A stretch of DNA of 56,170 nucleotides, taken from Terriglobia bacterium (GTDB lineage Bacteria; Acidobacteriota; Terriglobia; JAJPHL01). Below, one piece after another: positions 2,599-56,170 of the stretch; the stretch's first letter is position 1, and each line of letters opens with the position of its first letter. The notes beneath the pieces are model-generated. The model was given only the letters and a program-made list of their open reading frames with translations. It was not told the origin of the DNA and made no database searches. The DNA lies in contig JAJPHL010000032.1 in assembly GCA_021325275.1 (NCBI GenBank), forward strand, positions 229,082 to 285,251, written 5' to 3'. Made by a program: the position numbers and the translations under genes.

Positions 2599-4259
2599 GA
2601 GATCGACAACGTCTTACCCTCGGCAACTTCCGACGCCCGGCTTAGCGCGGCTTGAACGTGAGGCAAGATATTCCCCACCCCAATATGTTCGACGAACTCG
2701 GCCCGGTGAAGCAGATTCGCAGGTTGATCGCGCGCACCGCAGAGCAGCAAGGTTCGTCCCGATTTTTTCAATCGGTCCGACAGTCCTTCGAACGCTTTCA
2801 GGCCGGTGGCGTCGAGTGCCGTCATGTTCCGCAACCGCACGACGACGACGGAACCGAAATGCGAAAGATCCGTCGTGACGGTCGCAAGCTGATCCGTCGT
2901 TCCGACTAAGAAGGGTCCGTGGATCCGCAGGATTGTCACGTATTCCGGGATGCTCTTACCTTGAAGAACGTGCGGTTCACCGGCCTTAACGTACTCGGGT
3001 GTCACGACCGACACGGTGGTCGTCTCCGATACTCGCTGAATGTAGAGAAGCGCGGCCAGCGCCATGCCGACCTCGACCGCCACCGTGAGATCGGCCATCA
3101 CCGTGAGCGAAAAAGTGATGAACCATACGATCCTGGGCGCCCAGTCGAGCTTGAGAATCGCTGGAATCTCGCGCCACTCGCCCATGTTGTACGCCACCAC
3201 GAATAAGACTGCGGCGAGCGTGGCCAAGGGAATGAACTTGGCGAGCGGCGAAAGCAGCAAGACGATGGAGAGAAGAGTGAGGGCGTGGACGATTCCGGCG
3301 ATCGGCGTGCGTGCTCCAGAGCGAAAGTTCGTGGCTGTTCTGGCAATCGCTCCCGTCACCGGAATTCCGCCGACGAGAGGAGAAGCGATGTTGGCAATCC
3401 CCTGCGCGATCAACTCGACGTTCGAGTCATGCCGGTCGCCGTTCATTGAGTCGGCCACCACGGCGGAAAGGAGGCTCTCGACCGCAGCCAAGATCGCGAC
3501 CGTCAACGCGGAGGGCAATAGGGGGAGCAAGAGATCCGCGCGAAATCGAGGAATCGCGAAAGCCGGCAATCCGCTGGGAATGCCGCCGAACTTCGTGCCA
3601 ATCGTTTCCACCGGAAGGTGAAACAGAGCCACCGCGCTGGTTCCAACAAAGAGCGCGACAACGGATCCCGGCACGCGCGGCCAGAAACGCGGGACAACCA
3701 GGATGAGGCCAAGCGAAAGAACGCCCAACGAGATCGCAAACGGATCGGTTGTGTCGATGCAGCGGGCCAGCGCCCGGAGCCGCGCAAAGAATTCACTGGG
3801 GTTTTCTCGCATGCGCAGTCCCAAGAAGTCCTTGATCTGCGTAGAAGCAATCAATAGCGCGATGCCGTTCGTGAATCCCACAACGATGGGTCGCGGAATG
3901 AAACGAACGGCTGTACCGAGGCCGGTGATTCCCAAGAGCAACAGGATGACGCCTGCCATCATCGTCACCATCAGCAGGCCGGGTAAGCCGAGTTTCGCGA
4001 TGATTCCAGCTACGATCACAACGAACGCCCCAGTCGGCCCGCTGACTTGGATTTTCGATCCGCCGAGGGCTGCGACGATGAAGCCGCCGACGATCGCGGT
4101 GTAAATACCGGCTTGGGGCGTGACTCCAGACGCGATGCCGAACGCCATGGCGAGCGGCAGCGCGACAAGTCCCACGGTGACTCCCGCGATGAGGTCGGCC
4201 GTGAAGTCTTCACGCCGGTAGTCGCGCAGGCAGTCCTTGAGCTTGGGCCGCCACGTCAT
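2592..4259 (-). CDS. SulP-family anion (sulfate/bicarbonate) transporter with STAS domain
   Basis: 555 residues. Begins with the typical SulP N-terminus (DYRREDFTADLIAGVTVG, then LVALPLAMAFGIASG), followed by about ten to twelve hydrophobic segments to about residue 420. A C-terminal STAS domain covers roughly residues 440-545 (LRIHGPFLVGTTDQL, LRNMTALDATGL). It acts in the inner membrane as an anion symporter or exchanger; sulfate, bicarbonate or another oxyanion cannot be told apart here. Its ATG overlaps the TGA of the ArsR gene (ATGA), implying translational coupling and control by that repressor. Confidence 0.92.
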   Translation of the reverse strand: MTWRPKLKDCLRDYRREDFTADLIAGVTVGLVALPLAMAFGIASGVTPQAGIYTAIVGGFIVAALGGSKIQVSGPTGAFVVIVAGIIAKLGLPGLLMVTMMAGVILLLLGITGLGTAVRFIPRPIVVGFTNGIALLIASTQIKDFLGLRMRENPSEFFARLRALARCIDTTDPFAISLGVLSLGLILVVPRFWPRVPGSVVALFVGTSAVALFHLPVETIGTKFGGIPSGLPAFAIPRFRADLLLPLLPSALTVAILAAVESLLSAVVADSMNGDRHDSNVELIAQGIANIASPLVGGIPVTGAIARTATNFRSGARTPIAGIVHALTLLSIVLLLSPLAKFIPLATLAAVLFVVAYNMGEWREIPAILKLDWAPRIVWFITFSLTVMADLTVAVEVGMALAALLYIQRVSETTTVSVVTPEYVKAGEPHVLQGKSIPEYVTILRIHGPFLVGTTDQLATVTTDLSHFGSVVVVRLRNMTALDATGLKAFEGLSDRLKKSGRTLLLCGARDQPANLLHRAEFVEHIGVGNILPHVQAALSRASEVAEGKTLSISN

Positions 4260-25116: not shown

Positions 25117-25689
25117 GTGGCGGAAGATTCTTTCGTCACGGTCGCGCGGATCCGGCGTCCGCAAGGGCGTCGCGGCGAAGTGGCGACGGAGTTGTTGACC
25201 GATTTTCCGGAGCGATTTTCTCCGGGATCGCGCGTCTCGCTGGTCCATGTTGTATCCGGGCGTGCCGAACGCAAAGAAGTCGAGTTGCAGGACGCCTGGC
25301 CGCATAAGGGCGGGATGATTTTGAAGTTCTCGGGCGTCGATAGCATTTCCGACGCCGAAGCGATCGCCGGATGGGAAGTGCAGATTCCGGCGGAAGAACG
25401 CGTAGCACTCGAGGGATCGGCAGTGTACGTCAGCGATCTCGCGGGATGCCAGGTGATCGAGCGCGGCGAGACGCTTGGTACGATCGAGGGCGTGGACGAT
25501 CGCGTGGGAACGCCGGTGTTAATCGTGCGAACCGAGCGCGGCGAGTTGCTGATTCCGTTTGCGGAAGAGATTTGCAAGCAGATCGACACGGAACGCAAGA
25601 TCGTGGAAGTAGAATTGCCGGAAGGATTGCGTGAACTTAACGAAGGAGGGCAAAAGCAACCGCAGATGAACGCAGATAAACGCAGATAA
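25117..25689 (+). CDS. rimM: 16S rRNA processing protein RimM with repeat-derived tail
   Basis: 190 residues from GTG 25117, 1 bp after khpA ([20 protein letters not shown]). N-terminal RimM domain, then a PRC-barrel ([31 protein letters not shown]). It assists maturation of the 30S head through S19. The last dozen residues ([12 protein letters not shown]) and the stop codon lie inside the left arm of the 25652-25756 inverted repeat, so the C-terminus appears to have been rewritten by the repeat. Confidence 0.95.
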
Positions 25690-25756
25690 GAACGAATGGA
25701 TCGTTCTTGTCTTTGTTTTCATCTGCGTTCATCTGCGTTCATCTGCGGTTGCTTTT
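25652..25756. repeat. Long inverted repeat between rimM and trmD
   Basis: Arms 25652-25677 and 25731-25756 are 26-bp perfect complements built from a CGCAGATGAA-type unit; inner segments 25679-25687/25721-25729 and 25688-25695/25701-25708 also pair. It forms a very long RNA hairpin across the rimM stop and ends 6 bp before the trmD ATG. Confidence 0.85.
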
Positions 25757-26920: not shown

Positions 26921-26988
26921 AGTGCTGAGTGCCGAGTGCTGAGTCCTGAGGTTTCCCACTCAGCACTCAGGACTCAGCACTCAGCACT
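26921..26988. repeat. Inverted repeat of CTGAGT/ACTCAG type between rplS and rnhB
   Basis: Arms 26921-26950 and 26959-26988 are 30 nt with 27/30 complementarity around an 8-nt loop. It may terminate or process the operon transcript. It starts 4 bp after rplS and ends 10 bp before rnhB. Confidence 0.85.
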
Positions 26989-44022: not shown

Positions 44023-44547
44023 CTAAATCTTCAAGAATTCCGCGGATGGTTCTCCGGTCTTGCGCGCCAGGAAGAAAAGACCCGACCCACTGCGCTGATG
44101 AAACCGTGCGGCTTGCTTCACCTTGCCTGCAAGAACCATTCCACTCAAGATCCAATAGAGCAAGAGCGAGTCGCGCGCACCGCATGGATCATCGATATAT
44201 ACGTCTTACGTCGAAAGGTTTACCGGTTCGAAGCCGCTCAGGCGAAGGCACTCGCGCAACTGAAAATATGAGTATTCGTAGCGATGGCCCCAGTTGCCGG
44301 CGAACGTGGGAAATCGGCCCGTCAAGAAACGGAGTGCTTCGTCGCCGCTGAAGCGGTCCAATCTTTCCGCGTTGACACGGGAGCCCATTCGACCTGCAAT
44401 ACTACCTGACGTTGCGGGTAATGTCGATGCGGCGAAAGCGAGAATGGCCTGCTTCATCTGCGACAACGGTTTGGTAGAGTGCGCTTTCATGATTCGAGCC
44501 AGCCCCTCATGGCCAAGCATCTCATCATCGACGTTGAAGGCTTTCAT
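44023..44547 (-). pseudogene. Decayed methyltransferase-like gene, possibly fused to a SpoIIE-phosphatase-like fragment
   Basis: One frame runs from ATG 44547 to TAG 44023 but is broken by TAA at 44206-44208. Before the stop: DDEMLGHEGLARIMKAHSTK (recalls the end of SpoIIE-type phosphatases), then EALRFLTGRFPTFAGNWGHR and YFQLRECLRLSGF, typical of SAM-methyltransferase C-termini. After it, in frame, are DPCGARDSLLLYWILSGM and RSGSGLFFLARKTGE. So the reading appears once continuous. It overlaps the regulator stop by 23 bp. Fusion origin is tentative. Confidence 0.55.
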
Positions 44548-45202
44548 GACGTGGCGCATTTCGAGTTACTAAGAGCTCCGAGGTCTCCGGCAGGAACTTG
44601 GTTGTTAGCCGAACGAGCGCGGCAAAGGAGTCCGCCTCAATCTTGCGCATGATGTGTGCGCGATGCACTTGCACGGTGTACTCGGCGATTCCCAACTCAA
44701 ACGCAGCTTGCTTGTTTAGCAGACCTCGAACCAACAGCGCCAGCACTTCTCGCTCGCGAGGCGTCAAAGTGTTGTATCGAGCGACGAACGCTTCCCGCTC
44801 GATCGTCTCGCGACGATTCGCGCGATCCTGCTGCAGCGCCTTTTGAACGGAGTTGATGAGTTGCGCGTCATCAATCGGTTTGGTAAGAAAATCAATGGCT
44901 CCTGCCTTCATCGCATGCACGGCCATCGGAACGTCGCCTCGGCCGGTCATAAAGATCGTTGGCATCAGGGATCGCTCGCTGCTCAGTTTCGCTTGGAGCT
45001 CAAGACCCGACATGCCCGGCATCCGAATGTCAACGATCAGGCATGACGCCTCGTACCTGGCTTGGGAGTTCAGGAATTGTTCGGCGGAACCGAAGCAAAG
45101 CGCCGCTAACCCTGTCGATTCGATCAGGTCCCGGAGCGCGTGTTGCATGGACTCGTCGTCGTCGAGGACCGCGAGAAGTGTGGAAGTTCGCTCAATGGCC
45201 AT
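44525..45202 (-). CDS. FixJ/NarL-type response regulator (second of two)
   Basis: 225 residues. Receiver domain with LAVLDDDESMQHALRDLIES, phosphoacceptor D58 (CLIVDIRMPGMSG), FMTGRGDVPMAVHAMKAGAI and FLTKPIDD. C-terminal Lux[24 protein letters not shown] then EYTVQVHRAHIMRKIEA. It is 59 bp after the first regulator and follows the pump-kinase operon. Lack of a second kinase suggests the PAS kinase serves both regulators. Confidence 0.92.
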   Translation of the reverse strand: MAIERTSTLLAVLDDDESMQHALRDLIESTGLAALCFGSAEQFLNSQARYEASCLIVDIRMPGMSGLELQAKLSSERSLMPTIFMTGRGDVPMAVHAMKAGAIDFLTKPIDDAQLINSVQKALQQDRANRRETIEREAFVARYNTLTPREREVLALLVRGLLNKQAAFELGIAEYTVQVHRAHIMRKIEADSFAALVRLTTKFLPETSELLVTRNAPRHESLQRR

Positions 45203-45257: not shown

Positions 45258-45277
45258 ACTACTACTTTGGTGGTAGT
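45258..45277 (-). terminator. Weak hairpin after the first response regulator, possible attenuator
   Basis: ACTACCAC-N4-GTAGTAGT on the minus strand (7 of 8 pairs), followed by TTTCTCC. It overlaps the stop of the first regulator and precedes the second, so it might partly reduce read-through. Confidence 0.3.
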
Positions 45278-45912
45278 GAGGGAAAAGCGCCCTGAGGCGT
45301 GGGTCTGAGCTTGTCGACCATCCGGACCAGTTCAACCAGCGATTCCGCTTGCATCTTCTCCATGACATGGCCGCGGTGGATTTTTACGGTTGCCTCGCTA
45401 GCCCCGATCTTAGCGGCGATGTGCTTGTTGAGCATTCCGGAAACCACGAGCGTCATGACTTCGCGTTCTCGTGGAGTCAGTGCCTGATAACGCTCCTGCA
45501 AGGCGTTGACCTCGGCTTGTTGGTCGCGTATGGCGCGGTCCCTTTGGAGGGCCTGCTGAATCGCATCCAGCAAATCCTGATCCCGAAACGGTTTCGTCAG
45601 AAATTCCACAGCGCCTGACTTCAACGCTCGAACGGACATCGGAATGTCTCCGTGTGCCGTGATAAAGATGATGGGAATCTGCACGCCGGCCTCGGCCAAT
45701 TGGCGTTGGAAATCAAGGCCGCTCATTTGCGGTAGTCTTACATCGAGAACTAGGCAACTGGGATTGGAAGTGAGTTGCTTCTTGAGGAATTCGTCGCCGG
45801 TGGAAAATGCCTCGGCGCGCAACCCCACGGACTCCACGAGGTCTTGGACCGCCTGACGCATGCCGCGATCGTCATCGATGATGAACACCGTGGGAACGCT
45901 CGTGGGTTTCAT
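45262..45912 (-). CDS. FixJ/NarL-type response regulator (first of two)
   Basis: 216 residues from ATG 45912, which overlaps the kinase TGA (ATGA). Receiver: [21 protein letters not shown]57 in [32 protein letters not shown] and FLTKPFRD. Output [23 protein letters not shown] and [19 protein letters not shown]. Coupled translation with the PAS kinase makes it that kinase's probable partner. Target DNA is not proven; the 53866-53919 palindrome is a candidate. Confidence 0.93.
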
Positions 45913-47909
45913 CTGTGACCCTCCACTTCGCGCGGAAGCGTGAAATGGAAAGTTGCGCCGTGCCCGTGATTGGCGCTGGCCCACACTCGCCCTCCGTATG
46001 CCTCCACAATCGAGCGCGTAACGGCGAGCCCCATTCCCGTTCCCTGTGGTTTCGTCGTATGAAACGGATCGAAGATTCGATCAGCGCTCTCTGCCGGCAG
46101 TCCCACGCCCGTATCGCTGATGGAGATTATTAGTTGACCCTCCGAAGTTGCGCCGGAACGAATCATCATTTCTCCTCCGGCCTCTTGCATCGCCTCGATG
46201 GCATTGAGCATGAGGTTCATCAGGACCTGTTGAAGCTGCACTCGATCGGCCAGGATCGAAGGCAAATCGCCCGCGAGCTCGGCGCGAATCGTGATGTTGT
46301 GCCGAGCGGCCTCGGTCCTAAGCAGCGCAATCATCTCTTGCGCGATTTCGTTGACGTCGATCGATTGACGCTCAGCTGACGAGCCTGTCTTATAAAAGGA
46401 TCGCAGGCTGTTGATCACATCCGCCGCGCGGTTTCCGTCTCGCTCCATCCTGGCCGCTGCGGCACGCGCTCTTTCCAGGTCCGGCGGATCGTGTGCCAGC
46501 CACCGCAAACATGCATTCGCGCTGGTGATCGAGGCGGCAATCGGTTGCTTCAGTTCGTGGGCCAACGCGGCAGCCAACTCGCCCATCATGTTGACGCGGT
46601 TGATATGAGCGAGATCAGCCTCCAACCGGCGCAACTTTTCGCGCTCCTCCTCGGCGCGCTTTCGATCGGTGATATCCATGGTGATGCCGACGTATTCACC
46701 GATTTCCTGAGAGGGGTCATGATGCCCAAACGAGCGCAGGAACCTTATCGTTCCATCTGGGCGGCAGATTCGATATTCGTGGATATCGTAATCCGTTCTG
46801 GTACGAACGGCATTTTCAAGAGTTGCCCTCACAGCCGGTTCGTCTTCCGGATGAATGGTGCTGTAAAAGCGTTCGAGTGGAATCGGCCATTGGCGGGGAT
46901 CGAAACCGTGCAGACGAATCGTCTCGTCCGAATTATGATGAATTTGCCCAGTGGCGAAGTTCGTCGCCCAACTGCCGATATGAGCAAGGCTCTGCGCCTC
47001 GTTCAGGTAGGCCTGCTCGCGCCGCAACTCTCGAGTCAATAGCTCATGCTCGGTAACGTCCATGCCCACACCGCGGAACCCCTTGAACTCGCCTTGTTCA
47101 ACGACAGGAATGCCTACGCAACGGATGTGGCGCAACTCTCCGCCGGATCGAACGATTCGCGTTGTCACATCGCAGCCACGGTTTTGCTCATGCATCATCT
47201 TCAGCGCATCCGCCACGGACGCGCGATCTTGAGGGTGGTGGATGGCCAGAAACTGTTCCGTGGTCGGAACTCCGTTACGCGGGTCGAATCCGTAAATCTC
47301 AAACAGTTCGTCAGACCAAGAGCAACTTGAGCCGTCAGACGTCCAACTCCCCATGTGAGCGAGGCGCTGGCCTTCGCGAAAATGAGCTTGGGTTCGGCGC
47401 AGCGTTTCCTCGGCACTCTTCCGCTCGGTGATGTCCTGAACGGTTCCGAACATTTGGTAGGGTTGTCCGGAGGCGTCTCTCTTCACGTCGCCTTGACTGT
47501 GGACGATGCGCACCTCGCCGCTGGGACGCACCACCCGGTGTTCGGAGTCCGGCCGCGTTCCGTTTAGAACGGCTTCTTCCGCCGTCCGAAACACCGCGTC
47601 CCGATCTTCAGGGTGGATCAGCTCGCGCACTCTCGCTAAGTCTATGGGTCCTTCCTGCGGACTCAGGCCAAAGATGCGGTAGGTTTCGTCCGACCAGATT
47701 ACGCGATCCGTCTTCAGGTCCCATACCCAGTAGCCGAGGTGGGCGATGCGCTGGGCTTCTTCCAGGCGCGCCTTGCTTTCCTGTAAGTCGCGGGTGAGAG
47801 CTTCGGATTCCACGATTGCATTCATTGTAGGCGGAAAAACTCTGTTCTGCCTGAGTTGGCGGAGCTTTGGAGAGAGGACCCGGCCGATCGCTGCGAGTCC
47901 TTCAAGCAT
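45909..47909 (-). CDS. Soluble PAS-domain sensor histidine kinase
   Basis: 666 residues, no membrane helix. Three PAS_3-type domains: about 48-165 ([20 protein letters not shown]), 175-295 ([20 protein letters not shown]) and 300-420 ([20 protein letters not shown]), each ending near 'DITE/DVTE/DITD'. The HisKA box [20 protein letters not shown] has the phosphoacceptor H451. The ATPase has [16 protein letters not shown] and ISDTGVGLP, ending [11 protein letters not shown]_3 kinases sense small molecules, redox or light inside the cell. Its ATG overlaps the outer-membrane factor stop by one base (TGATG). Confidence 0.93.
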
Positions 47910-49324
47910 CAGCTTTGCCAGCCGCCGCCCAGCGCTTTGTAGAGTTGCACGACACTGAGCAACTCGTTTAACTTGATTTGGCGAAGGTCCAGCTTGGCTT
48001 GCAGGAGATCGCGATCGGCGTCGAGTGCGTTGAGTTGCGTGTCCACGCCACCTTGATATCGCATGTATGCTAAACGCTTCCGCTCCTCCAGCGCGGCGAC
48101 AAGAGTTTCCTGCTTGATTCTGGCTTCCTGCACTCTTTGATGAGCGATCAAGGCGTTGGACACTTCAGTGAACGCGGTCTGAATTGTTTTCTCGTATTGC
48201 ACCAACGCAATCTCGCGTTGGGATTCCGACAATCTCACGTTCGATCCGATCCGGCCCGCGGTAAAGATCGGCTGGCTGAGTTGCGGAATGAAAGTCCACG
48301 TGCTGCTTGGTCCATTGAAGAGGCTCGACAGTTGCGTGCTTTGCCCACCGAGCAGGCCGCTCAAGCTCAGTTGCGGAAAGTACGCCGCCTTCGCCACGCC
48401 GATGTTGGCGTTCGCTGCAATCAGGTTCTGCTCGGCGGCATGGATATCGGGACGACGGTCCAGCAATGTGGAAGGCAAACCCGCGGGAACTTCCGGCGGC
48501 AAGATGTTTTCGTCGAAGGCTCCCTGGCGCGCGATGCCCGAGGGATTCTCGCCCAGCAGCAACGTAATCTGGTTCTCGGCCTGCTCGATCTGCTGCTGCA
48601 AATTCGCGATCGTTACGCCAGCGGTCGCAACGAGTTGTTCAGTCTGCTTCACTTCTAGTTCGGTCGCGATCCCGTGATTGCGGCGTGACGTCGTGAGATT
48701 CAGCGATTCCTGCCGAGTGGCGAGCGTCTGCCGGGCAATCTCGAGTTGACCGTCCAATTCGCGGAGCGTGAAGTATTCGGTCGCCACATTGCTGACGAGC
48801 GTGGTGATGACAGCTTTGCGGTTTTCTTCAGCGCCTAAAAGATTGGCGCGCGCGGCTTCGGTGGCCCGTCGCAGCCGGCCCCATAGGTCCACTTCAAACG
48901 ACAGTAGATTGAGTTGGGCTTGTCCCCAGTTTCTGTTCTGTGACGGAACAAGAGCGGCAGGAAGCGGAAGCGAGCCGTTTCTTGAAAGCCGCGTGACGTT
49001 CACGTCACCGCTCGCGCCGGCCTGCGGATACTGATCGGAGCGCGCGATGCCGAGACTCGCCTGCGCCGCCTCGACACGCACCGCGGCGTCTCGCAGATCG
49101 TAATTGTGCGCGAGCGCGGACTTGATGAGGTCCTGCAACTGCGTGTCGCGAAAAACGTCCCACCATTTCAGGTCCGCGAAGGACGCTGCTTGGGCGGGTG
49201 GCAACGGTTCCGGTGCACGGAAGTTTGCCGGTGCCTGCACGTCGGGACGATGGTAATTTGGCCCGACGGCGCAACCGGCGAGAAGACTCGCCGCGACGAT
49301 CATTGCGATAGCTTGCGATTTCAT
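47909..49324 (-). CDS. RND efflux outer-membrane factor (NodT/TolC family lipoprotein)
   Basis: 471 residues from ATG 49324, with GGAAGGAGATTGAG upstream. The lipoprotein signal is MIVAASLLAGCAVGPNYHRP. Duplicated helical repeats include YDLRDAAVRVEAAQASLGIA, QLEIARQTLATRQESLNLTT, RRPDIHAAEQNLIAANANIG and YEKTIQTAFTEVSNALIAHQ. It forms the trimeric outer-membrane channel. Downstream of the RND pump gene by 1 bp. Confidence 0.92.
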   Translation of the reverse strand: MKSQAIAMIVAASLLAGCAVGPNYHRPDVQAPANFRAPEPLPPAQAASFADLKWWDVFRDTQLQDLIKSALAHNYDLRDAAVRVEAAQASLGIARSDQYPQAGASGDVNVTRLSRNGSLPLPAALVPSQNRNWGQAQLNLLSFEVDLWGRLRRATEAARANLLGAEENRKAVITTLVSNVATEYFTLRELDGQLEIARQTLATRQESLNLTTSRRNHGIATELEVKQTEQLVATAGVTIANLQQQIEQAENQITLLLGENPSGIARQGAFDENILPPEVPAGLPSTLLDRRPDIHAAEQNLIAANANIGVAKAAYFPQLSLSGLLGGQSTQLSSLFNGPSSTWTFIPQLSQPIFTAGRIGSNVRLSESQREIALVQYEKTIQTAFTEVSNALIAHQRVQEARIKQETLVAALEERKRLAYMRYQGGVDTQLNALDADRDLLQAKLDLRQIKLNELLSVVQLYKALGGGWQS

Positions 49325-49325
49325 C

Positions 49326-52300
49326 TCAATCTCCTTCCTGAGGCGACGGCAGCAGGGAAGGCGCGCCTCCCTCGGCGGCTCGTGCGCTCGAAAACTTTTC
49401 GACCAGATAGTAGACCGCAGGCACAAAGAAGATTCCGATGGCGCTGGCGGCCATCATTCCGCCGATCACTGTGGTTCCCATCACCTGACGCGCGACGGAG
49501 CCGGCGCCGGACGCGGTCCACAGCGGCAGGCATCCTAAAATGAAGGCGAAAGAAGTCATCAGAATCGGCCGCAGACGAAGTCTTGCTCCTTCGAGAGCGG
49601 CCTCCATCAGCGGTTTGCCACGCTCGTATTCTTCCTTGGCGAACTCCACGATCAAAATCGCGTTCTTGGCTGCGAGGCCGATCAACATCACCAAACCGAT
49701 CTGCGAATACACATCGCTCTCGAGCTGCACCATGTAAGGGGGCAGGAAAGCCGACAGCAAGATTCGGCGCAGCCAGAGCACGGCGAATGCTCCGAAGATC
49801 GCCACCGGTGTGCTCAACAGCACGCTGAACGGCAAGGTCCAGCTCTCGTAAAGCGCCGCGAGAATCAGAAAAACGAAAGCCAGCGAGAACACAAAGATGA
49901 TCGATGCCGGCGTTCCTTCCCGGGCTTTCTGCTCCTGATACGACATACCCATATAGTCGAAGCCCATTTCGTGCGGCATGGTTTGCTTGAAAACCTCTTC
50001 CAATGCGGCCGTCGCCTGATCGGAGCTGTAGCCAGGAGCCGCACTGCCATTGATCTGCGCCGAACGGTATTCGTTGTAGCGCATCGTGAACTCGGGGCCC
50101 TCACGCGGTTTGAAGTCCGCAAGCGCCGACAGCGGCACCATGTCGCCTTCACTATTGCGCACGTGGAACTGTCCGAGATTGTCGGGCGTAGAGCGGTAAT
50201 CGGCTTCTGCCTCCACATAGACTTGCCACTGGCGGCCAAAATCGTTGAAGTAGTTGATGAACAGACCGCCCATGTAAGCTTGAATCGTTCGATAAACGTC
50301 GCTCACCGGCACGCCCTGTTTCAGCGCCTTGTCGCGATCGACGTCGACGAACCTTTGCGGGACGTTCGGAAGAAAAGTCGTCGAGACCAATCCGATTTCC
50401 GGACGCTTTCGCGTCGCCGCGAGAAACTTGTTTAGGTTGTCGGCCAGAAACTGAACGTTGCGTCCCGCGCGATCTTCGAGCACAAACTGAAATCCGCCGG
50501 CCGTACCGACTCCAGGGATCGCGGGCGGCGAGAAACTAAACACGATTCCGCCGGGAAGCGTGGTCAGTTTTCGGTTTAACCGCGCTTTGATCTCCTGAAA
50601 CTGCTCGGCGCGGGATGTCCGCTCATCCCATGGTTTCAAAGTGACGAAGAAGAATCCGTTGTAGCTGGTGCGGACGAAGCTGAGCAGGCTGAAGCCAATG
50701 ATGCTCGTGGTGTACTCGACGCCCGGCGTCTCGGCAAGGATTCTTTCAACCTGCGCCGCCGCTTCGGACGTGCGTTCCAGCGACGCGGAATTTGGCAGCT
50801 GCATATTCACGTAGAGATAGCCCTGATCTTCGTCCGGCAGGAAACTCGACGGCACGCGGCCGGCGAAGAAAAAACCGGCCGCGCCGGTGGCCGCGAGTAA
50901 CCCAAGAGCCAGCACACTCTTCCGAACCAGCACGCCGGACCACTTTACGTAGCCGTTTGTGGCGCGCTCGAAAACGCGATTGAAGGCGTCGAAGATGCGT
51001 TGCAGCAATCCATGACTCTCCGCCCTCGGTCGAAGCAGCAGCGCGGCCAACGCGGGACTCAAGGTAAGCGCGTTGAAAGCGGAGAGAAGCACGGAAATCG
51101 CGATCGTCACGGCGAATTGCTGATAAAGCCGTCCCGTGATGCCCGGAATAAAAGCCGTGGGAACGAAGACCGACGACAGAACCAGCGCGATGCCGATGAC
51201 GGGGCCGGAAAGTTCGTTCATGGCCTTGCGTGCCGCGTCCTTTGGACTTAGCCCTTCTTCGATGTGCCGTTGGACGCCCTCGACAACTACGATCGCGTCG
51301 TCCACCACAAGGCCGATGGCCAGCACCAGGCCGAACATCGACAGCGTGTTGATCGAGAAGCCGAAAAGCGGGAAGAGGATGAACGTACCGACGAGCGACA
51401 CCGGCACGGCCAGCAAAGGGATGAGCGTTGAGCGCCAGTCTTGGAGAAAAATATAGACCACAACAATCACCAGCGCGATGGCAATCAGAAGCGTTTCGAC
51501 GATCTCCTTCATGCCCTCAGTAACCGCACTCGTTTGATCGAGAGCGACGGTGAACTCCACGTCTTGCGGTAGGCGCGGCTTCATCCGCGCCATCAACGAT
51601 CTGACCGCAGCGGCGGTATCGACCGCGTTCGAGCCCGGCAACTGATAAACGGCGACCACCGCGCAGGGTTTGCCGTTCAAACGGCTGATCATGCTGTAGT
51701 CCTGAGCGCCGAGTTCGACCCGAGCGATATCCTTCACCCGAACGACTCCGCCATTCGGCGCGGCGCGAACCACGATGTTTCCAAATTGCTCGGGCGAGGT
51801 CAGCCGGCCTTGCGCGAGGACCGAATACGTGAATTTTTGATTCTTCGGCGCAGGATTGCCGCCGATCTGACCGGCCGGATTGACCGTATTCTGCGACTGG
51901 ATCGCATTGACGATGTCGGTCACGGCGATCCCCATCTGCGCCAGTCGGTCGGGTTTCACCCAGAGCCGCATCGCATACTGCGCCGCACCGAAAACTTGCG
52001 CATGACCGACGCCCGGTAATCGCCCGATGGGATCGTTCAGATTGATGTAAGCGTAATTCGCCAGAAACTCCGCGTTCCGGCTGCCCTTCGGTGAGTACAA
52101 GCCGATGAGCATGAGCGGAGCGGTCACGGACTTTTGTACGATGACGCCGTAGTTGTTTACGTCAGCGGGAAGTTGTGAAGCCGCCTGCGTCTCGCGCGAC
52201 TGCGTGAGGATGAGATCGTTATTCGGATCGGTGGCAACGTCGAAATTCACGACGAGGGTAGTCTGCGAATTCCCCGTGGCGTTCAGAGAATACATGTAAT

Positions 52301-52526
52301 TCATCTTGTCGACGCCGTTGATCTGCTGCTCGATCGGCGTAGCGACCGATTGCTCCAGCGTTTGCGCGTCAGCGCCTACGTATGTGGCCAGAACCTGGAT
52401 CTCTGGTGGAACGATGTCGGGGAACTGTGCGACAGGCAGGCGTGCGACCGACACGGCTCCCACGATCACCGTCACGATTGCGATCACTATGGCCACGATG
52501 GGCCGCCGAATGAAAAAGTTCGACAC
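49326..52526 (-). CDS. RND multidrug efflux transporter (AcrB/HAE1 family)
   Basis: 1066 residues. Starts MSNFFIRRPIVAIVIAIVTV. Contains the porter domains (TYVGADAQTLEQSVATPIEQ, LPGVGHAQVFGAAQYAMRLW), the twelve-helix layout, and the proton-relay segment FGLVLAIGLVVDDAIVVVEG. A second DN/DC region reads EDQGYLYVNMQLPNSASLE. The C-terminal half has AALYESWTLPFSVLLSTPVA and GLAAKNAILIVEFAKEEYER. It exports hydrophobic toxicants or drugs using proton motive force. Confidence 0.96.
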   Translation of the reverse strand: MSNFFIRRPIVAIVIAIVTVIVGAVSVARLPVAQFPDIVPPEIQVLATYVGADAQTLEQSVATPIEQQINGVDKMNYMYSLNATGNSQTTLVVNFDVATDPNNDLILTQSRETQAASQLPADVNNYGVIVQKSVTAPLMLIGLYSPKGSRNAEFLANYAYINLNDPIGRLPGVGHAQVFGAAQYAMRLWVKPDRLAQMGIAVTDIVNAIQSQNTVNPAGQIGGNPAPKNQKFTYSVLAQGRLTSPEQFGNIVVRAAPNGGVVRVKDIARVELGAQDYSMISRLNGKPCAVVAVYQLPGSNAVDTAAAVRSLMARMKPRLPQDVEFTVALDQTSAVTEGMKEIVETLLIAIALVIVVVYIFLQDWRSTLIPLLAVPVSLVGTFILFPLFGFSINTLSMFGLVLAIGLVVDDAIVVVEGVQRHIEEGLSPKDAARKAMNELSGPVIGIALVLSSVFVPTAFIPGITGRLYQQFAVTIAISVLLSAFNALTLSPALAALLLRPRAESHGLLQRIFDAFNRVFERATNGYVKWSGVLVRKSVLALGLLAATGAAGFFFAGRVPSSFLPDEDQGYLYVNMQLPNSASLERTSEAAAQVERILAETPGVEYTTSIIGFSLLSFVRTSYNGFFFVTLKPWDERTSRAEQFQEIKARLNRKLTTLPGGIVFSFSPPAIPGVGTAGGFQFVLEDRAGRNVQFLADNLNKFLAATRKRPEIGLVSTTFLPNVPQRFVDVDRDKALKQGVPVSDVYRTIQAYMGGLFINYFNDFGRQWQVYVEAEADYRSTPDNLGQFHVRNSEGDMVPLSALADFKPREGPEFTMRYNEYRSAQINGSAAPGYSSDQATAALEEVFKQTMPHEMGFDYMGMSYQEQKAREGTPASIIFVFSLAFVFLILAALYESWTLPFSVLLSTPVAIFGAFAVLWLRRILLSAFLPPYMVQLESDVYSQIGLVMLIGLAAKNAILIVEFAKEEYERGKPLMEAALEGARLRLRPILMTSFAFILGCLPLWTASGAGSVARQVMGTTVIGGMMAASAIGIFFVPAVYYLVEKFSSARAAEGGAPSLLPSPQEGD

Positions 52527-52556: not shown

Positions 52557-53840
52557 TCACGCGCCTGGTTGTGACTTTTGCGATGACGGCTTGGGACGCA
52601 CATGCATGCCGGGAGCAACTTTTTGGACTCCTTCGACGATCACGCGCTCGCCGGCTTTCAAGCCGTCGCGGACGATCCAGAACGCGCCAACCTGATCGCC
52701 CACGTTGATCGTTTGAACGTTGACGGTTCCGCTTCCATCCACCGTGGCGACCTGGTAGTTGCCCTGCATCTCGGTAACTGCCTGCTGAGGAACAACCAGT
52801 GCGCCGTGCAGCGTTTCCACGGCGACGCGCACCTTGCCGTATTGTCCAGGGCGGAGAATGTCGCCTGGATTTGGAAACAACCCTGTGACCTCGATGGCGC
52901 CGGTGCTCTGGTTCACTTGGCGTCCGGTGAAAGCGAACTTCCCCTCGTGTGGATAGATCGCTCCGTCAGCTAGAATCAGTTCGAATGGCGGAGCCGGATC
53001 GTCCGGTTTGCGTTCCTTCCTGAATCTGAGATACTCCTGCTCGCTGATCGCGAACGTGACCTTGATGGGGTCAACTGTAGAGACGGTGGTGACGGCGTTG
53101 GCAGCCGGGCTCACCAGATTGCCGATCTGAATCTGCACATTGCCCGCGATGCCATCGATAGGAGAGTACAACTTGGTGAAGCCGAGGTTTACGCTGGCCG
53201 CTTCCACCGCGGCCTTCGCCGCTTCCACCGTCGCATTGGCCGCCTGGATCTGAGCCTTCGCCGCTTCCACTTGCGCGGTGGTCATTTTCACCTGCGCTTT
53301 CGCGGAGAGATTGTTCTGTACGGCGTTATCGAGATCCTGCTGGGTGACCGCTTTCTCCTTGGCGAGCGGTGTATAGCGGTCTTCGTCGAACTGCGCCTTG
53401 CGTTGATTCGCTTCGGCGCTGGCCAACTGCGCTTCCGATTGCTGATACTGCGCCTGCGCTTGCGCTAACTGGCCGGTGGCCTGGGCGAGTTGTCCTTTCG
53501 CTTGGTCGAGCGCCGCCTGCAGCGGACGCGGATCGATTTGGAAGAGGAGCTGGCCTTTCTTGACGAAAGAACCTTCCGCGTAGTCTTGGGTGAGCAAGTA
53601 GCCCGTGACTTGTGCACGGATCGCGGCGTTGACCATTCCGTCGAGCGTTCCGATCCATTCGCGATAGACCGGAATGTCCTTCTGCTCCACCGCGACCACT
53701 TCGACTTCCGGCGGCGATGCCTCGCTCGCCCGCGCCGACGTTCGGCTGCAACTCGTCAGTTGAACGCAGATGACGGCCAGCAACAGGGCTTTGCTTATTT
53801 CAACGATTCGGCAGCGGAGGTTCTTCGTCATGCAGGCCAT
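52557..53840 (-). CDS. RND efflux periplasmic adaptor (membrane fusion protein)
   Basis: 427 residues. The lipoprotein signal ends LLLAVICVQLTSCSRTSA. Then YREWIGTLDGMVNAAIRAQV (lipoyl half), GYLLTQDYAEGSFVKKGQLL, LFQIDPRPLQAALDQAKGQL, a long alpha-hairpin with repeated Gln/Ala heptads, and the beta-barrel domains (LYSPIDGIAGNVQIQIGNLV, GDILRPGQYGKVRVAVETLH, GLKAGERVIVEGVQKVAPGM). It links the pump to the outer-membrane channel. First gene of the minus operon; ATG 53831 is an alternative start. Confidence 0.95.
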   Translation of the reverse strand: MACMTKNLRCRIVEISKALLLAVICVQLTSCSRTSARASEASPPEVEVVAVEQKDIPVYREWIGTLDGMVNAAIRAQVTGYLLTQDYAEGSFVKKGQLLFQIDPRPLQAALDQAKGQLAQATGQLAQAQAQYQQSEAQLASAEANQRKAQFDEDRYTPLAKEKAVTQQDLDNAVQNNLSAKAQVKMTTAQVEAAKAQIQAANATVEAAKAAVEAASVNLGFTKLYSPIDGIAGNVQIQIGNLVSPAANAVTTVSTVDPIKVTFAISEQEYLRFRKERKPDDPAPPFELILADGAIYPHEGKFAFTGRQVNQSTGAIEVTGLFPNPGDILRPGQYGKVRVAVETLHGALVVPQQAVTEMQGNYQVATVDGSGTVNVQTINVGDQVGAFWIVRDGLKAGERVIVEGVQKVAPGMHVRPKPSSQKSQPGA

Positions 53841-53865
53841 GCTACCGAAGCATGAAGCGAAGGGA

Positions 53866-53919
53866 TATTACATGTTCTGAGTAGTACGATTTCGCTGCGT
53901 CTACTGAGAACATGTAATA
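53866..53919. promoter_or_regulatory. Long palindrome in divergent pump/dehydrogenase region (candidate operator)
   Basis: Arms 53866-53884 and 53901-53919 are 19 nt each with one mismatch (core ATTACATGTTCT and its complement), separated by 16 nt. It sits between the adaptor gene start (53840) and the aldehyde dehydrogenase start (53970), so it could control both directions. No -10/-35 pair is clear. Confidence 0.7.
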
Positions 53920-53969
53920 GACGAAGTGCGCTTACTCTCCATACGATCCTCGGTGAGGAGAGAAGCACG

Positions 53970-55385
53970 ATGAAAACAATCACACAGCACTACGTCGATG
54001 GAGCATTCGTTGAATCGCATGGCCGCGAGGTCATGGATATCGTCAATCCAAGCACCGGCAAGGTCATTGGACGCGTGACGCTCGGTGACGAAGAAGATAC
54101 GCGGCGCGCCATCGCCGCCGCTAAGCGAGCGCTCGCAACCTACGGGCGCTCGACAAAAGAAGAACGCGCCAAGATACTGCGCCGTCTCCACGAGGCTGTT
54201 GCGGCGCGCATCGACGATCTGACGGCCGCGATGGTGGAAGAATACGGCGGCACTTCCACCTTTTCTCGAATCATCATCGAGGCGGGCGCCAAGGTGTTTC
54301 TTTCGGCCGAGAAGGCGCTGCAGGAACTGCCCCTGACGAGGAATCTCGGCAAAACGACGGTCACGCTCGAACCAGCCGGCGTCTGCGGCCTGATTACTCC
54401 GTGGAACGCCAACTCGTTTTTCCTTTGCGCCAAACTCGCATCCGCCCTTGCCGCCGGTTGTACGGCGGTCCACAAGCCGAGCGAACTTAGTTCGCTACAA
54501 ACGCAAGTTTGGCTTGAGTGTATCCACGAGGCAAAACTTCCGAAGGGACTTTGCAACGTGGTGACCGGCCGCGGCAATGTGGTCGGGGCCGAACTCGTGC
54601 GCAATCCCGATGTCGCCAAGATTTCGTTTACCGGATCGGTTGCCGTCGGGAAGTCGATCATGCGTGACGGCGCGGCGACGATGAAGCGCGTCACGCTCGA
54701 ACTGGGCGGCAAGTCGCCCAACATCCTGCTCGACGATGCCGATCTGAAGACGGCCATTCCCAACGCGCTCATGATCGCTTTTCTGAACAGCGGTCAGGCA
54801 TGCGCGGCGGGGACTCGTCTTCTTGTGCCGAAGCGCCGGCTCGACGAGGTCAAGCAAGCGATCAAGGACACGATTGCCGCATTTCCCACGGGAGATCCCG
54901 CCGATTCCAAGACCGCTGTCGGCCCGATGGTGTCGCGAACGCAGTACGAACGCGTGCAATCGTACATTCGAAAAGGCATTGAAGAGGGAGCCGAAGTTCT
55001 GGCCGGCGGCGAAGGACATCCCCAAGGGCTTGAGGATGGTTTCTTCGTGAAGCCCACGGTATTTGTGAACGTGAGGAACGACATGACGATCGCCCGCGAA
55101 GAGATTTTCGGTCCCGTCTTGTGCGTCATCGCCTACGATGACGATGAAGACGCCATCCGGATCGCCAACGACACGGATTTCGGACTTCATGCGTTCGTGA
55201 GCGGCGCCGATATCCAGCGCGCTCGCCGCGTGGCGTCGCGCATCCTTGCCGGGCGCATTGCGATCAACGGAATGCTGGACGATCAACAGGCGCCGTTCGG
55301 AGGATTCAAGCACTCAGGTGTCGGCCGGGAATTCGGAACGTATGGGATTGAGGCGTTTCTCGAAGCTCGGGCGATCCTCGAATAA
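53970..55385 (+). CDS. NAD(P)-dependent aldehyde dehydrogenase
   Basis: 471 residues with GAGGAG upstream. ALDH family signatures: PAGVCGLITPWNANSF, GCTAVHKPSELSSLQTQVWL, SFTGSVAVGK, catalytic Glu E244 (RVTLELGGKSPN) and nucleophile Cys C278 (NSGQACAAGTR), then EEIFGPVLCVIAYDDDEDAI and FGGFKHSGVGREFG. It oxidises an aldehyde to an acid. Divergent from the pump operon across the palindrome and followed by an SDR gene, which suggests a linked aldehyde or alcohol detoxification pathway. Confidence 0.94.
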   Translation: MKTITQHYVDGAFVESHGREVMDIVNPSTGKVIGRVTLGDEEDTRRAIAAAKRALATYGRSTKEERAKILRRLHEAVAARIDDLTAAMVEEYGGTSTFSRIIIEAGAKVFLSAEKALQELPLTRNLGKTTVTLEPAGVCGLITPWNANSFFLCAKLASALAAGCTAVHKPSELSSLQTQVWLECIHEAKLPKGLCNVVTGRGNVVGAELVRNPDVAKISFTGSVAVGKSIMRDGAATMKRVTLELGGKSPNILLDDADLKTAIPNALMIAFLNSGQACAAGTRLLVPKRRLDEVKQAIKDTIAAFPTGDPADSKTAVGPMVSRTQYERVQSYIRKGIEEGAEVLAGGEGHPQGLEDGFFVKPTVFVNVRNDMTIAREEIFGPVLCVIAYDDDEDAIRIANDTDFGLHAFVSGADIQRARRVASRILAGRIAINGMLDDQQAPFGGFKHSGVGREFGTYGIEAFLEARAILE

Positions 55386-55434: not shown

Positions 55435-56170
55435 ATGCACAGACTCGAAGGAAAGATCGCCGTCATCACAGGAGGAAGCAGCGGCATCGGCCTCGCCACC
55501 GCCAAGCGCTTTGTGAAGGAGGGCGCCTATGTTTTTATCACCGGCCGCCGGCAAACCGAGCTCGACAAAGCCGCCGCTGAGATCGGCTCAAACGTGACCG
55601 CCGCAAGGGGGGACGTTGCGAACCCCAATGACCTTGACCGGCTCTATCAAACCGTCGCAGCCGAGAAGGGCAAGCTGGATATCCTGTTTGCGAACGCCGG
55701 AATTGCGGACCCGGTGCCTACTCCCGACGTTACCACCGAACACTACGACAAGACCTTCGGCGTAAATGCCCGGGGCGTTTTCTTTACCGTGCAGAAGGCC
55801 CTTCCTCTGATGAGGGCCGGCGGCTCGATCATCGTCAACGGTTCCGGCGCCTGGCAGAAGGGTATTCCAATGTATGCGACGTATAGCGCCACGAAGGCGG
55901 CCCTGCGCTCGTTTGTCCGTACGTGGACCGCTGAATTAGCGAGCAAAGGCATCCGCGCCAACCTCGTCAGCCCAGGCCCGGTCGAAACGCCCTTCTCGAA
56001 GCCCAGTTCGGCCCGAATGTCGGCGCGATGAAGGACCGGTTCATAGCCATGACGCCAATGCAACGGATTGGACGGCCCGAAGAGATTGCCTCGGCCGTTC
56101 TGTTCCTGGCGTCCGACGAAAGCAGCTTCATCACGGGCGTCGATCTGCCAGTCGACGGCGGCACCGTAGC
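55435..56170 (+). pseudogene. Short-chain dehydrogenase (SDR), frameshifted; 3' end beyond window
   Basis: Starts MHRLEGKIAVITGGSSGIGL with cofactor motif GGSSGIG, then ILFANAGIA (NAG), IVNGSGAWQKG and the catalytic YSATKAALRSF (Y-x3-K). After SPGPVETP (about 55992) the reading shifts and stops at 56031. In the +2 frame from 55995 the family ending resumes: [53 protein letters not shown], open to the window end. One missing base between 55992 and 55995 explains it. A real mutation or an assembly error cannot be told apart here. Confidence 0.8.

Follow-up and report, generated by a model that had tools for sequence, protein, structure and literature searches.

The TodS/TodT, TmoS/TmoT and StyS/StyR systems control aromatic catabolic promoters through FixJ-type regulators that bind dyads with a 4-bp spacer; the half-sites of the TodT/StyR box are ATAAAC-N4-GTTTAT. 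FixL/FixJ, which governs oxygen control in rhizobia, combines the same regulator architecture with a PAS kinase. RND efflux operons can also have two-component systems of their own, as in AdeRS, BaeSR and ParRS, where the regulators are OmpR-type. The window analysed here, a 56-kb stretch (56,170 nucleotides) from a Terriglobia bacterium, contains an efflux operon and a divergent aldehyde dehydrogenase unit composed of the following genes.

52557–53840, minus strand: RND periplasmic adaptor
49326–52526, minus strand: RND pump, AcrB family
47909–49426, minus strand: outer-membrane efflux channel
45909–47909, minus strand: histidine kinase with three PAS_3 stretches
45262–45984, minus strand: RR2, FixJ-type response regulator (receiver and LuxR-type HTH)
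44525–45202, minus strand: RR1, FixJ-type response regulator and the proposed binder
53970–55385, plus strand: aldehyde dehydrogenase, 81–82% identical to Collimonas and Bradyrhizobium proteins
55435–56031, plus strand: short-chain dehydrogenase, second gene of the rightward unit

The leftward operon runs in the order adaptor, RND pump, outer-membrane channel, PAS-domain kinase, RR2 and RR1. Both regulators possess Response_reg and GerE (LuxR-type HTH) domains, the Pfam hits of the kinase include no membrane-sensor domain, and no regulator family other than FixJ was seen beside the gap between the two units. The short-chain dehydrogenase frame encodes 198 aa, compared with about 250 aa in homologues, and looks truncated; the end of the window is also that of the contig, and a frameshift or assembly error probably explains the shortened frame.

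The type of control predicted at this locus is a familiar switch, namely a pair of operators for a FixJ-type response regulator. As in the TodT, TmoT and StyR systems, a FixJ-type regulator with a LuxR-type HTH accompanies a PAS kinase, and a dyad with a 4-bp centre lies upstream of the promoter. The proposed RR1 half-site TTACAT/ATGTAA, however, differs from the TodT-type ATAAAC/GTTTAT, so that only the 4-bp spacer type is common to both, and identity with the TodT/StyR box was rejected because the window half-site is ATGTAA. Unlike those systems, which act on aromatic catabolic promoters, the predicted RR1 targets are an RND pump and an aldehyde dehydrogenase, two sites stand back to back between divergent promoters, and a simple PAS kinase takes the place of the long double-kinase form of TodS-type systems. 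FixL/FixJ differs from the window system in its site and targets, and there is no evidence of a haem-binding PAS domain in the window kinase. The efflux genes would be under a local two-component system, as in AdeRS, BaeSR and ParRS, but the regulators are FixJ-type rather than OmpR-type, and the kinase and two regulators come last in the operon of the pump, which faces a divergent aldehyde dehydrogenase unit. A description of this operator was not found in the open-licence literature on FixJ-type operators with efflux, aldehyde or stress-protein genes, or on TodT/StyR boxes, and may be published elsewhere. On Cupriavidus necator pBB1 (locus L075), a kinase/FixJ pair is surrounded by a related AATGTGTAATAG element in three near-identical copies, CTAAACCAATGTGTAATAGCC...CACTAATCTACGGACACTG (positions 3678, 4883 and 10712, minus strand), one of which lies directly ahead of a gene resembling an aromatic monooxygenase large subunit.

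The 129-bp divergent gap, from the ATG at 53840 (minus strand) to the ATG at 53970 (plus strand), holds an inverted repeat with two arms.

53866–53884: left arm, 19 nt, TATTACATGTTCTGAGTAG
53901–53919: right arm, 19 nt, CTACTGAGAACATGTAATA

The arms are complementary at 18/19 positions around a 16-nt centre, which bears out the original prediction of an almost perfect inverted repeat with one mismatch at this place. The palindrome scored 15, whereas the maximum among 1500 dinucleotide shuffles of the gap was 11. Its length alone is not distinctive, because a few longer inverted repeats are present elsewhere in the window; judged from the sequence comparisons below, the palindrome is set apart by the conservation of its arms. 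One longer repeat, at 25652–25756, has 36-nt arms with one mismatch and a 33-nt centre, contains units of CGCAGATGAACGCAGATAAACGCAGAT, and resembles a family of intergenic repeats more than an operator. Another, at 26928–26988, has 23-nt arms (AGTGCCGAGTGCTGAGTCCTGAG) with one mismatch and a 15-nt centre.

The presence of other inverted repeats in the window would be consistent with a transposable or REP-type repeat, or with chance. The original prediction had named many unrelated genomic copies of the palindrome as evidence against itself, and had proposed a genome search for the half-site. That search matched at the gap only, with no second exact copy in the 6.86-Mb genome, and no further copy of the whole arm was found there at up to three mismatches, leaving a single locus in both searches. 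Multiple genomic copies were thus not seen and a transposable or REP repeat was rejected; with the shuffles never reaching the observed score and the arms conserved beside RR1-type regulators, this whole group of explanations is highly implausible. The spaced arm pair was found in 0/398 other genomes of the class, the window being the sole match in the 399 searched, and a DNA similarity search with the whole gap against 60 relatives and plasmids returned only the window itself.

Five loci encoding RR1 homologues (L105–L109) were chosen from the same class by similarity to RR1 and their neighbourhoods were fetched, together with four loci of RR2-type homologues (L110–L113). A matrix built from L105–L109 alone was used to scan the window and the loci, and genome-wide searches were performed with mismatch patterns. 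The two best-scoring sites in the window coincide with the arms and are followed by candidate promoter elements.

53865–53884, minus strand: left operator, minus-strand reading CTACTCAGAACATGTAATAT, directed toward the efflux operon (rank 1 in the window, 22.4 bits)
53839–53844, minus strand: -10 element TAGCAT of the efflux operon promoter, 20 bp past the left operator
53901–53920, plus strand: right operator, CTACTGAGAACATGTAATAG, directed toward the aldehyde dehydrogenase (rank 2 in the window, 22.3 bits)
53918–53923, plus strand: -35-like element TAGACG of the aldehyde dehydrogenase promoter
53942–53947, plus strand: -10 element TACGAT of the aldehyde dehydrogenase promoter, 21 bp past the right operator

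The best unrelated site in the window reached 10.5 bits with this matrix, which contains no window sequence. The palindrome is best read as two complete response-regulator sites of about 20 bp in opposite orientation, rather than as one operator, and the long palindrome would be a by-product of two complete sites standing back to back. Each site is an imperfect dyad, TAC-N7-ATGTAA, with the well-conserved half adjoining the -35 position and the distal half degenerate. A symmetric form, ATTACAT-N4-ATGTAAT, is found beside some RR1 homologues, suggesting that one regulator dimer occupies each site.

A TAnnnT hexamer starts 20–22 bp downstream in 19/28 sites, both window arms included, against a background of 1.7%. 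TACGAT and its spacing are identical to those of universal stress protein gene promoters in L106 and L108, and TAGCAT and its spacing to those of the Collimonas aldehyde dehydrogenase promoter. Since TAGCAT overlaps the listed adaptor ATG at 53840, the next in-frame ATG, at 53831, is the likelier start, and the adaptor transcript would then possibly be leaderless or nearly so. The dyad centre lies at about -43 relative to the proposed promoters, and class II type activators bind near -43.

From their position upstream of the -10 elements, the sites are predicted to serve activation rather than repression. Repression of both units from the same sites by RR1, or by RR1 and RR2, via a loop or polymerase block, is unlikely but retains some weight: the sites lie between divergent promoters with their centres 34 bp apart and could bridge, and sites without the -10 spacing exist upstream of the RR1-homologue genes in L106–L109, where repression is possible. 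In the window, however, the sites end at the -35 position, 20–21 bp from the -10 element, which is the usual activator position, and the centre distance changes from 34 bp in the window to 58 bp in Collimonas, so that the geometry between sites is not kept. A role of the repeat in RNA, as a stem-loop serving as an attenuator, terminator or leader element, is very improbable. The predicted RNA fold is strong (z = -6.3), but as strong a fold is expected of any such palindrome; no Rfam match was found. Both arms are flanked on the outside by the predicted -10 elements, and hence neither promoter would transcribe the palindrome; furthermore, no T-run follows the repeat, and in Collimonas the half-site sequence is conserved whereas the spacing is not. 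Activation from two DNA operators remains the preferred reading.

To the question of which protein binds, the original prediction had offered the FixJ regulators or a distant repressor. The comparisons support the FixJ family, as the site recurs at RR1-type loci; RR2 is less likely, as the sampled RR2-type loci lack the site, and so is a repressor, given the position that predicts activation. Window RR1 is about 50–55% identical to the best site-bearing homologues, and its HTH stretch EYTVQvHR is common to the Collimonas and L105–L109 regulators. L106–L109 carry about 4–7 core copies each (up to two mismatches), often including one directly upstream of the regulator gene, and some copies match the Collimonas site without a difference across 20 bases; L105 has weaker copies. 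The RR2-type loci contained no good sites, the single weak match being one with two mismatches in L111. Genome-wide, a 20-mer matched 6, 3, 5 and 3 times in four RR1-homologue genomes, compared with 1, 0, 1 and 1 for a reversed-pattern control; these matches fell mostly within tens of kilobases of the regulator, and the same 20-mer gave 0 matches in five comparison genomes. On a phylogenetic tree, window RR1 and the regulators of site-bearing loci lie on one side of a branch with 100/99 support and RR2 lies on the other, although RR1 sits on a long branch and its exact place within the site-bearing group is unsure. Because loci of the RR1 subfamily keep the site and RR2-type loci do not, the binder is, from these comparisons, most likely RR1 and not RR2.

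As the loci were chosen by RR1 similarity, a second regulator common to those neighbourhoods is conceivable, but among 20 scanned L106/L107 proteins no other shared regulator was seen beyond ECF sigma and two-component proteins. Several regulator families have palindromes similar to the symmetric form, which would be compatible with recognition of TTACAT-N4-ATGTAA by another binder, such as RR2 or some distant protein of CRP/FNR or TetR type. This is rather unlikely, given that good sites are missing from L110–L113 and the tree places RR2 apart from the site-bearing regulators, that no regulators other than FixJ-type ones with a PAS kinase were seen to be shared by the window operon and the Collimonas locus, and that orthologous aldehyde dehydrogenase loci without FixJ have no site.

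Close relatives of the aldehyde dehydrogenase are scattered (Bradyrhizobium 82%, Collimonas 81%, Caballeronia 76%, Janthinobacterium 73%), a distribution that suggests horizontal transfer. Upstream of the 81% identical Collimonas protein, CTAC-N4-AACATGTAATAG matched at 16/16 positions, and no other place in that genome matches with fewer than two mismatches; the full upstream sequence is CTACCAGAAACATGTAATAGACG, and its window counterpart is CTACTGAGAACATGTAATAGACG. A second Collimonas site is inverted, weaker and 58 bp away centre to centre, and the two rank 1 and 2 in their own locus, scoring 32.1 and 22.4 bits versus 7.1 with the matrix from L105–L109 only. The inverted copy (L016, position 8685, minus strand) lacks a -10 element at the usual distance, and no divergent gene is obvious there. 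A FixJ-type regulator and PAS kinase are encoded near the Collimonas aldehyde dehydrogenase. The Bradyrhizobium, Caballeronia and Janthinobacterium aldehyde dehydrogenase loci have no FixJ-type regulator among their listed reading frames and no site; the site and the regulator were both absent from L017, L031 and L071. Two paralogous efflux operons in the same genome as the window (L072 and L073) likewise have no site, and no kinase/FixJ set was seen there. A strict operator-plus-promoter pattern was found only in Collimonas among 294 genomes of its family, suggesting that the exact promoter form is rare.

The palindrome is probably two back-to-back RR1 operators in a divergent promoter region, from which phosphorylated RR1 would activate both promoters. 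The PAS-domain kinase from the efflux operon would phosphorylate RR1, a pairing suggested here, and RR1 dimers would bind both predicted sites, each bringing RNA polymerase to the promoter beside it. Multidrug export and aldehyde oxidation would then be switched on together by one signal. As the kinase and both regulators end the efflux operon, activation would also feed back positively on the kinase and regulator genes. Shared control of export and aldehyde detoxification, as originally predicted, gains support from the comparative evidence.

Beyond the window, strong sites in L106 and L107 lie ahead of a universal stress protein gene, and efflux genes come after it. Other genes with the operator upstream in L106–L109 include a cytochrome oxidase operon, FAA hydrolase, a Mla-type transporter and ECF sigma factors. 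The site-bearing genes of L106–L109 are possibly an undescribed regulon, and a role of the RR1 subfamily in export and stress beyond the window is plausible. On a broader reading, for and against which we see about equal chances, an undescribed FixJ subfamily with the HTH stretch EYTVQ-HR would control a stress and efflux regulon via (T)TACAT-N4-ATGTAAT(AG), common to this class and Burkholderiales. Its targets would include universal stress proteins, efflux genes, cytochrome oxidase and a Mla-type lipid transporter, plus, in the window and in Collimonas, an aldehyde dehydrogenase. The gene of this enzyme and its operator may have been transferred as a unit between distant bacteria. Linking a response-regulator subfamily to a specific DNA site would make regulons predictable in many uncultured genomes, and for this organism it predicts that one kinase induces multidrug export and aldehyde oxidation together.
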